DNA from: Verrucomicrobiota bacterium
GTDB lineage: Bacteria > Verrucomicrobiota > Verrucomicrobiia > Verrucomicrobiales > DEV007
Direction: 5' to 3'
Assembly (NCBI GenBank): GCA_002862135.1
Contig: PKCI01000147.1
Location: 16,402-80,401 of the forward strand
DNA: 64,000 bases
Under the pieces are notes generated by a model. That model worked only from the letters and a program-made list of their open reading frames with translations, ran no database searches and was not told where the DNA came from. A program made the translations under genes and the position numbers. Shown one piece after another: positions 24,569 through 56,658 of the stretch (the stretch's first letter is position 1; every line of letters begins with the position of its first letter).

Positions 24569-25165
24569 CTAGTTCGACTGCCAATTCGTGATATGGCGGG
24601 CCTGATCTTCCTCCGCAGTCGGGTCGGCATCCACAATCGACCACAGATCATAGGTCGGATTAAAAGTCTCCCTCTCTTCCGGGTCAATATTCGGCGGTTG
24701 CGCAAGGTAACGAAACTCGTTTCCGTAAGCATCCAGAACGACGAATTTTCCGTCCCCGGAAACACCCACACGAGGGTCCTTGGACTCCTGATTCTCTTTG
24801 AAGGAAAGCTTGGGAACATAGACTTTCTCATCTGTGTCAAAGTCGACTTCACCGTCTTCGTTCCAGTCGCCGGACAGGTGCTTGTAAAGCACTGATGCGC
24901 CTTCAATTCCAACGGTATCACGGTCTCCACCATTCGGCGGATTCTGCGGATAAATACCGTGATCCAACTGATATTTGGAAAGCCCATCCGCAAACTCCGC
25001 CATCATTCGCTCTACCCGCCCGCGATTAATCTTCGACTGGATGCCGGGCAAAGCCGCTATCAACAAGCCAGCCAGGATAACCATGATGGCAATCACGGTC
25101 ATCAACTCAATCATGCTGAAGCCAGCCGCATGATGCTTCTTAGCAGAGATTTTCATAGTCATCAT
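24569..25165 (-). CDS. gspG: Type II secretion/type IV pilin-like major pseudopilin (GspG-like)
   Basis: 198 residues. A basic leader ends in a prepilin-peptidase site G-FSMIEL (Gly15/Phe16 from the first Met; starts at 25165 and 25156 are both possible), with Glu5 of the mature form present. The hydrophobic N-helix is MTVIAIMVILAGLLIAALP. The C-terminal part has DAYGNEFRYL and YDLWSIVDAD, the conserved GspG-type globular motif. It is last in the gspE-gspE-gspF-gspG unit, 76 bases after gspF. The prepilin peptidase is not in the window. Confidence 0.88.
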   Translation of the reverse strand: MMTMKISAKKHHAAGFSMIELMTVIAIMVILAGLLIAALPGIQSKINRGRVERMMAEFADGLSKYQLDHGIYPQNPPNGGDRDTVGIEGASVLYKHLSGDWNEDGEVDFDTDEKVYVPKLSFKENQESKDPRVGVSGDGKFVVLDAYGNEFRYLAQPPNIDPEERETFNPTYDLWSIVDADPTAEEDQARHITNWQSN

Positions 25166-25241
25166 CGTAATAGGCGATGTTCTGCCATGTCAATACATTG
25201 TAAATATCGACACAACCTGTTGTTTGCTCTTTTTTCCACCA

Positions 25242-54759: not shown

Positions 54760-56658
54760 ATGGAAAACCGTAGCTACGAAACGACAGCCCGAAAGATGGA
54801 CACGATGCCTCCGGGCATCCCCTACATCATCGGTAACGAAGCCGCTGAGCGATTCAGTTTCTACGGGATGCGGACCATCCTTACCATCTTCATGGTGAAT
54901 TACCTCTGGCTTATGGGAAGCTCCCCGATAGAGCGCATGACCGATACGGTAGCGAAGACCCAGTTTCACAACTTTGTTTCACTGGTTTACTTCACCCCCA
55001 TCGCCGGAGCCCTGCTCGCCGATCTTTTCTTCGGCAAATACCGCGTCATTGTCCTTCTATCTATCGTCTACTGCCTCGGTCACGGAGCCCTTGCTATCAT
55101 GGGAATGTGGGGAGAAGCTTCCTTCTGGCTCATGATGGGTTTGTGGCTCATCGCTATCGGATCGGGCGGCATCAAACCCTGTGTCTCGGCACATGTCGGT
55201 GACCAGTTTGGGTCGCAAAACCGCCACCTGCTGCCGCGAATCTTTAACTGGTTTTACTGGTCCATTAACCTCGGAGCTTTCCTTTCTACCCTTCTCACGC
55301 CCTGGCTGCTGGAATGGTACGGCCCTCACTGGGCGTTTGGAGTTCCCGGCGTTCTCATGGCCTTGGCAACGCTCGTCTTCTGGATGGGTCGCTGGAAGTT
55401 TGTTCACATTCCTGCCAAGGGCACGCCCTTCATCAAGGAACTCTTCAGCGGCGAAGGCCTCAAGGCCATCGTGAAACTCTCTGGTATCTACGTCTTTGTG
55501 GCCGTCTTCTGGGCGCTCTTTGATCAGAGCGGTTCCTCCTGGGTTCTCCAGGCAGAAAACATGGACCGCAACTGGCTTGGAGTGGAATGGCTACCGAGTC
55601 AGATCCAGGCGCTGAATCCCATTCTCATCCTGACATTCATTCCTCTATTCTCCTACGTGGTCTACCCAGCAATCGACAAGGTATTCCCGCTGACCCCACT
55701 CCGGAAAATCAGCATCGGCTTGTTCATCATGGTCATCTCCTTTGTCCTCGTGTCCATCGCCCAGGCCAGAATCGATGCGGGGCAAACCCCCTCTATTTCC
55801 TGGCAGCTACTTGCCTACGTTTTTCTGACTGCGGCCGAGGTCATGGTCTCCATCGTCTGCCTCGAGTTCAGTTACACTCAGGCGCCCAAGACGATGAAGT
55901 CAGTCATCATGGCGATCTTCCTATTCGCCGTTTCCCTCGGCAACCAAATCACAGCACAGATCAATAACTTTATCCAGGTGCCCGACCCTATTGCCAATAT
56001 CGAAGCGACCGGCAATGAAGTCGCACTCGGCGGATTCGACCAGAAGACCGGCACGCAGGATGACATCAAGGTTACCTTCAACAAAGAAGGCAGCCGTAGC
56101 GACCTCACCTTTGCTTCACGCGATTCAATTGACCTGCTTCTCGATCAGATCAGCAACAAGGTAGCCGAGAACAATCACCTCGCCCTGAGCACCAGCGAGG
56201 GTGAAGTGATCACCAACGCCGTCAACGATCCATGGGGCAATCCCTACCGCTACCGCCTCGTAAACAGGAATCTGGCCCGCATCTGGAGCCTTGGCCCCGA
56301 CGCCACTGATAAGACCGAGTGGGATCAAGGCGCGACCCTGACGATCGATCGCCCGTCCAGCAAGGAGCCTACCGCCTTCTCCAAGATTATTGGCAAGATT
56401 CAGCCCGAGAAAACGTGGTTGGAATCGCGCCGCGCGAAACTGGGCCTTCCCACCGAGGAAGAAATGGCGGAGTCCGGCCCTATCATTTCCCGCAGCTATT
56501 TCGTCGGGGGACAGGTGAAGTTGGAGGGAGCCTCCTACTTCTGGTTCTTCAGCGGACTGATGCTGGCTGCCGCCCTTCTCTTCCTGGTCGTAGCCAAGCT
56601 CTATAAGCCCAAGGAATACTATCACGAAGAGGCCAACGACACCGAAGCTAAGGACTAA
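54760..56658 (+). CDS. POT/PTR-family peptide transporter with a GspG-like extramembrane insertion
   Basis: Proton-coupled oligopeptide transporter of 632 residues, against about 500 normally. NEAAERFSFYGMRTIL holds the ExxER proton-coupling motif (about 27-31); FNWFYWSINLGA and the FYWSIN segment are family signatures. About a dozen TM helices are visible. Between the last two, residues about 408-590, lies a hydrophilic insert with GFDQKTGTQDDI, DPWGNPYRYRL (490-500) and IWSLGPD (508-514). These match the C-terminal globular motif of GspG pseudopilins. The last TM is about 592-613. It starts 33 bases after the ROK gene. Confidence 0.88.
   Translation: MENRSYETTARKMDTMPPGIPYIIGNEAAERFSFYGMRTILTIFMVNYLWLMGSSPIERMTDTVAKTQFHNFVSLVYFTPIAGALLADLFFGKYRVIVLLSIVYCLGHGALAIMGMWGEASFWLMMGLWLIAIGSGGIKPCVSAHVGDQFGSQNRHLLPRIFNWFYWSINLGAFLSTLLTPWLLEWYGPHWAFGVPGVLMALATLVFWMGRWKFVHIPAKGTPFIKELFSGEGLKAIVKLSGIYVFVAVFWALFDQSGSSWVLQAENMDRNWLGVEWLPSQIQALNPILILTFIPLFSYVVYPAIDKVFPLTPLRKISIGLFIMVISFVLVSIAQARIDAGQTPSISWQLLAYVFLTAAEVMVSIVCLEFSYTQAPKTMKSVIMAIFLFAVSLGNQITAQINNFIQVPDPIANIEATGNEVALGGFDQKTGTQDDIKVTFNKEGSRSDLTFASRDSIDLLLDQISNKVAENNHLALSTSEGEVITNAVNDPWGNPYRYRLVNRNLARIWSLGPDATDKTEWDQGATLTIDRPSSKEPTAFSKIIGKIQPEKTWLESRRAKLGLPTEEEMAESGPIISRSYFVGGQVKLEGASYFWFFSGLMLAAALLFLVVAKLYKPKEYYHEEANDTEAKD

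Follow-up and report, generated by a model that had tools for sequence, protein, structure and literature searches.

The window, by which we mean the whole 64,000-nucleotide stretch of DNA analyzed here, carries a gene for a POT/PTR2 family proton-coupled oligopeptide symporter interrupted by a large insert (Table 1). The PTR2 profile (Pfam PF00854) covers the membrane core of the 632-residue reading frame with an E-value of 5.8e-82 (276 bits; cut-off 27). Among solved structures, the product aligns best with PepTSo (2xut; phmmer E 8e-94), PepTXc (6ei3; 2e-83), and mammalian PepT2 (1.6e-72) and PepT1, and its best NCBIfam match is the oligopeptide:H+ symporter model TIGR00926 (E 5.9e-99, under the curated cut-off of that model). 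Residues E27, E30, R31, K139, D255, and E360 are invariant in an alignment of 44 sequences. From family knowledge we take them to be the ExxER motif of TM1 (E27, E30, R31), the lysine of TM4, the acidic residue of TM7, and the glutamate of TM10. Since these core transport residues are invariant, the protein should, by family membership, be a working proton-coupled di/tripeptide importer. The description of an otherwise normal proton-coupled peptide transporter in an earlier note on this DNA agrees with both the PTR2 match and the canonical core residues.

Table 1. Features of the POT gene and its insert (window coordinates; aa, residues of the product).
Feature	Coordinates	Strand	Basis
POT/PTR2 family proton-coupled oligopeptide symporter, 632 aa, 12 TM, with predicted periplasmic insert	54760..56658	+	PF00854, phmmer, TIGR00926
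TM1-TM11 transporter core (aa 16-404); conserved E27xxE30R31, H70, K139, D255, E360	54805..55971	+	invariant alignment columns, model helices
Predicted periplasmic insert (aa 405-590, 186 residues) between TM11 and TM12	55972..56529	+	absent from insert-less POTs; model pLDDT mostly >80; positive-inside count
N-terminal subdomain of insert (aa 418-452): strands around acidic loop GGFDQKTGTQDDI	56011..56115	+	
GTQDDI, in the N-terminal subdomain	56050-56067	+	
GspG-like module (aa 454-530): helix-helix-strand-strand-acidic loop-strand	56119..56349	+	T2SSG, TIGR01710, PDB GspG matches, HHalign, model
DPWGNPYRYRL, within GspG-like module	56227-56259	+	
Acidic loop GPDATDKTEWDQ of GspG-like module	56293-56328	+	
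C-terminal segment of insert (aa 539-590): three short helices, then a strand, G583-G584 leading into TM12	56374..56529	+	
TM12 (aa 591-614)	56530..56601	+	AlphaFold model

In the full-length AlphaFold model, built from 44 homologues (pLDDT 82.7, pTM 0.85), the transmembrane helices run from 20-51 through 377-404 (TM11) and end with 591-614 (TM12), leaving residues 405-590 as a separate domain. The helices number 12 because the two extra TM6-TM7 helices of other bacterial POTs are absent; the alignment with 2xut skips about 70 residues at this point. The TM6-TM7 loop is 135 residues long in two further POTs (L190 and L191), compared with 94 in L189 and L192.

The insert is hydrophilic from residue 408 to 590, with 21 Lys/Arg, 28 Asp/Glu, and no cysteine. 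Both its placement between the last two transmembrane helices, right to within a few residues, and the motifs DPWGNPYRYRL, IWSLGPD, and GTQDDI were correctly given in the earlier note. Assigned cytoplasmic loops contain 17 Lys/Arg against 3 in the periplasmic loops, so that, by the positive-inside rule and its TM11 and TM12 flanks, the insert should lie on the periplasmic side. Seven positions in it are fixed overall: G512, D514, D522, W553, G583, G584, and G590. The first three belong to the module and are invariant in 44 members; in 69 members, G512 is still invariant and D514 and D522 are conserved in at least 90%. Together with nearby carbonyls, D514 and D522 are candidate Ca2+ ligands. 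Most of the insert residues that are invariant across both phyla in which it occurs fall in the C-terminal segment, where W553 and G583-G584 are invariant and R557 nearly so. HHalign detected no similarity of this segment to pseudopilins. In the N-terminal subdomain, the alignment of relatives shows conservation of G425, D427, T432, D434, and D435, and the loop GGFDQKTGTQDDI may be a second calcium-type loop. Its HHalign match to the pseudopilin calcium loop is weak (69%). It reaches 44% against the insert's own module, of which it may possibly be a second copy.

The earlier note proposed a search for the same insert in other Verrucomicrobiota, and the insert proved to be widespread. A POT match was found in 221 of the 289 genomes of the order, more than 100 of them matching through the insert to TM12. 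Most Verrucomicrobiales POTs found have the insert, as do part of those in Planctomycetota, where a related POT occurs in 58 of 392 sampled genomes, about 22 of the 58 with the insert. Continuous reading frames in so many genomes of both groups rule out a one-off fusion or assembly artifact. The insert is absent from the examined members of one family (our code f4) and one genus (g19). The length of the TM11-TM12 loop is bimodal, 6-24 residues without the insert and 121-241 with it, and no intermediate length was seen; in the insert-less POT L108, the site reads VNWWVEHHKDG on one side and AALDGAAYYWFF on the other. In L093, L095, and L097, the insert is cut to about 124 residues and lacks the N-terminal subdomain, its first half having been lost in these lineages.

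In a tree built on the transporter core alone, without the insert residues, 53 of 54 insert-bearing POTs form one clade (SH-aLRT 99). The sole outlier in the free tree is L137, and a tree uniting all 54 is not worse (p-AU 0.82). Because this unification costs no likelihood, one gain is the simplest account, and the data are consistent with a single origin in the ancestor of a POT subfamily shared by Verrucomicrobiota and Planctomycetota; independent gains in the two phyla are not needed. In the computable cases, the insert has a dN/dS of 0.09-0.34 (0.12 against L002), which indicates that it is under purifying selection. Relative to the core, its dN is higher by a factor of about 4-7. A low dN/dS combined with faster change than the core is as expected of a constrained, peripheral domain.

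The resemblance to GspG is seen at several levels. The T2SSG profile (PF08334) reaches 21.2 bits when run on the insert by itself (gathering threshold 21) and 18.4 on the whole protein, and it matches 30 of 44 relatives at E-values up to 1 (best 3e-6). The NCBIfam GspG model TIGR01710 matches 35 of 69 members (best 1.5e-4); the score is 14.7 relative to a cut-off of 88.85. When the insert profile was searched against 177,635 PDB sequences, the top eight were all GspG, EpsG, or PulG chains (E 0.004-0.04). HHalign against twelve pseudopilins gave 98.2% for the insert, and 98.7% when restricted to its middle part; the alignment spans 38 columns at 47% identity, with E-values of about 1e-14 to 1e-16. 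This HHalign figure is biased upward because 11 of the twelve come from loci retrieved by the insert's own profile; the Pfam and PDB results are free of this bias. An insert-only AlphaFold model from 69 sequences (pLDDT 85.7) has, in its own numbering, helices at 49-65 and 73-80, strands at 92-97 and 100-105, the acidic loop, and a strand at 118-125. This is the order alpha1-alpha2-beta1-beta2-(calcium loop)-beta3 described for PulG (PMC6692295). A Foldseek search of the PDB with a 187-residue model of the whole insert returned no fold match; the fold relation to GspG thus rests on the sequence profiles and the element order. The comparison of a predicted structure with GspG, suggested in the earlier note, is thereby answered in part: the order of elements agrees, and a whole-domain counterpart was not recovered.

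These comparisons argue that about 40 residues (DPWGNPYRYRL...GPD..T.WD) share ancestry with the GspG beta-hairpin and its calcium loop. The homology spans about 40-75 of the 186 insert residues. Likeness to GspG is confined to the middle of the insert, and to speak of an inserted pseudopilin, as the earlier note did, is an overstatement; what stands of that claim is the C-terminal module of GspG type. Pfam N_methyl does not match the protein, and neither a class III leader nor the N-terminal pilin helix is present. With no such leader and the module lying inside a loop, the insert is not a pseudopilin. The window does contain a pseudopilin gene (24572-25189, reverse strand), beside a T2SSF and two T2SSE genes, and its product carries DAYGNEFRYL and YDLWSIVDAD, as had been pointed out. 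This product matches Pfam N_methyl only and not T2SSG, which makes its "gspG" label uncertain and places the insert closer to GspG than that protein is.

Five non-pilin proteins (L084, L085, L089, L197, and L202) end in D-x-W-G-x-P-F/Y-x-F-H...IRSxGPD...T-x-DD, as pseudopilins and the insert do. Their module aligns with that of the insert at 97.7%, nearly as well as the pseudopilins; a pilin leader was not seen in any of the five, and L202 matches no Pfam family. Since hairpin and loop recur in such proteins, the module is a building block in wider use in these phyla and not proof of a link to secretion.

The surroundings of the gene were also considered as a clue to a partner. In close relatives, the upstream neighbors are DXR and ROK genes, and at the Planctomycetota loci scanned they are unrelated ones (RNase PH, SpoU methylase, histidine biosynthesis, and a TPR protein). 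In the scanned neighborhoods, which differ among lineages, the POT gene is linked to neither a peptidase nor a binding protein; we set aside an operon clue, and the result weighs against the docking or capture reading given below.

We propose that the insert is a periplasmic accessory ectodomain for docking or capture, folded around Ca2+ by a GspG-type module and gained once; we give this reading a probability of roughly 45%. On this view, the subfamily ancestor would have acquired the domain a single time, as an expansion of its last periplasmic loop, and at the center of the domain would lie an alpha/beta module of pseudopilin type that has a calcium-type acidic loop. The module would bind Ca2+ and be folded by it, and the domain, as an accessory, would hold a periplasmic partner (a peptidase, a peptide-binding protein, or an envelope component) or peptides near the mouth of the transporter; the basic transport cycle would be carried out by the core helices. 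Substrate capture, raised in the earlier note, is possible within this scheme. Variable length, absence from relatives, faster evolution, and few fixed residues are together what an accessory domain would show. The ectodomain of mammalian PepT1/PepT2 is likewise modular and a trypsin binder, and transport persists after its removal (PMC4597091). It is this combination, together with the mammalian parallel, that leads us to favor docking or capture. Second in our order of preference, and somewhat unlikely, is a regulatory lid or gate, in which a calcium-stabilized domain sits on the periplasmic mouth with its C-terminal helices and VGG coupled to the movement of TM11 and TM12, making uptake dependent on Ca2+ or an envelope signal. 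The conserved WLExR...VGG stretch beside TM12 could mark the domain as a functional part of a gate, counter to the accessory reading: W553, G583, G584, G590, and the nearly invariant R557 all adjoin this helix. The pTM of the full-length model, high despite a 186-residue insert, hints at a fixed placement. However, close POT relatives with a 10-residue loop presumably function without any insert, and the members that have dispensed with its first half also argue against a gate. A structural or protective elaboration (stability, shielding from proteases, or spacing from peptidoglycan), with no specific ligand and retained because the fold came to include its edges, comes third and is unlikely. 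Rapid sequence change and large length variation would fit it, and unrelated inserts in other Planctomycetota POTs suggest that the transporter tolerates decoration; yet the acidic loop and the DPWGxPxxY motif (G512, D514, D522) have been retained over two phyla, and purifying selection acts on the insert.

Two other readings concern the module itself. That its similarity to GspG is convergent, reflecting a generic type of acidic beta-hairpin loop that is widespread in these proteomes, is improbable. The match is short (38-40 residues), the single-sequence scores lie near threshold, and Foldseek was negative, but the shared order D-x-W-G-x-P-x-x-Y / I-x-S-x-G-P-D / T-x-D, the profile identity and E-values given above, and the lead of GspG in the unbiased PDB search all speak for common descent. 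Contact of the module with the type II secretion or type IV pilus machinery, or its joining a pseudopilus so that secretion is coupled to peptide uptake, is very improbable. The idea, advanced in the earlier note, draws on the homology with GspG and on the T2SS/T4P-type genes of the same window (about 24.5-30 kb). It fares badly against the missing N-methyl leader and pilin helix, the tethering of the module by transmembrane helices at both ends, and its occurrence in non-pilin proteins of these phyla; moreover, the scanned neighborhoods show no linkage to secretion genes, the nearest T2SS/T4P-type genes here being about 25 kb away.

The insert is not an ordinary, well-described POT domain: outside the T2SSG stretch, neither Pfam nor NCBIfam has a family for it, and text searches of the literature gave no result. 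No description of a POT with such an insert was found there, an absence that is not proof. A POT subfamily with its own ectodomain is a variant on a known transporter type. POT transporters are used to model how humans take up drugs and peptides, and the role of their extra extracellular domains is unsettled. With an ectodomain that some genomes have and their relatives cleanly lack, the subfamily offers tractable proteins for asking what such domains do. Its central module suggests that the pseudopilin calcium module is reusable outside filaments.

Compared with GspG/PulG (PF08334, TIGR01710), the insert shares the DPWGNPY-Y hairpin, the acidic loop, and the alpha1-alpha2-beta1-beta2-loop-beta3 order; it differs in having no pilin helix or leader, in being embedded in a transporter loop, and in its extra N- and C-terminal segments. 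The closest solved cores, PepTSo (2xut/4uvm) and PepTXc (6ei3), are 34-37% identical to the window protein and, unlike it, have two extra TM6-TM7 helices and no TM11-TM12 insert. Insert-less POTs such as L108, L169, and L149 have cores about 55-60% identical to the window protein (Verrucomicrobiota) or to L044 (Planctomycetota) and differ in their TM11-TM12 loop of about 10 residues. Among Planctomycetota POTs, L187 (G699:C163:77847-80794; 662-residue reading frame) has a 223-residue TM9-TM10 insert with two Big_9 Ig-like stretches (E 6.8e-15), in the position of the mammalian PepT1/PepT2 ectodomain and of comparable fold class; it was seen in one genome only. Six others (L183, L184, L185, L186, L188, and L196) have unrelated TM9-TM10 inserts of 57-205 residues, some apparently repetitive. 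A broader conjecture, which we regard as doubtful, is that peptide importers of the PVC group evolved periplasmic ectodomains repeatedly at two loops to dock periplasmic peptidases or peptide carriers, with a pseudopilin calcium module co-opted for one of these ectodomains; bacteria would then have arrived convergently at an arrangement like that of PepT1 and trypsin. The best functional parallel of the insert would be the ectodomain of PepT1/PepT2 (SLC15A1/2). Both transporters are 12-TM POTs with a TIGR00926-like core, including the histidine on TM2, and in both a modular extracytoplasmic domain of about 200 residues interrupts the C-terminal bundle. The mammalian domain consists of two Ig-like folds between TM9 and TM10 (PMC4597091), a loop of only 12 residues with no Ig-like tandem domain in the window protein, whereas the insert, of other ancestry, separates TM11 from TM12 and includes a GspG-like module. 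It seems to represent a bacterial counterpart, so far undescribed, to the additional domain of the mammalian gut peptide transporters.
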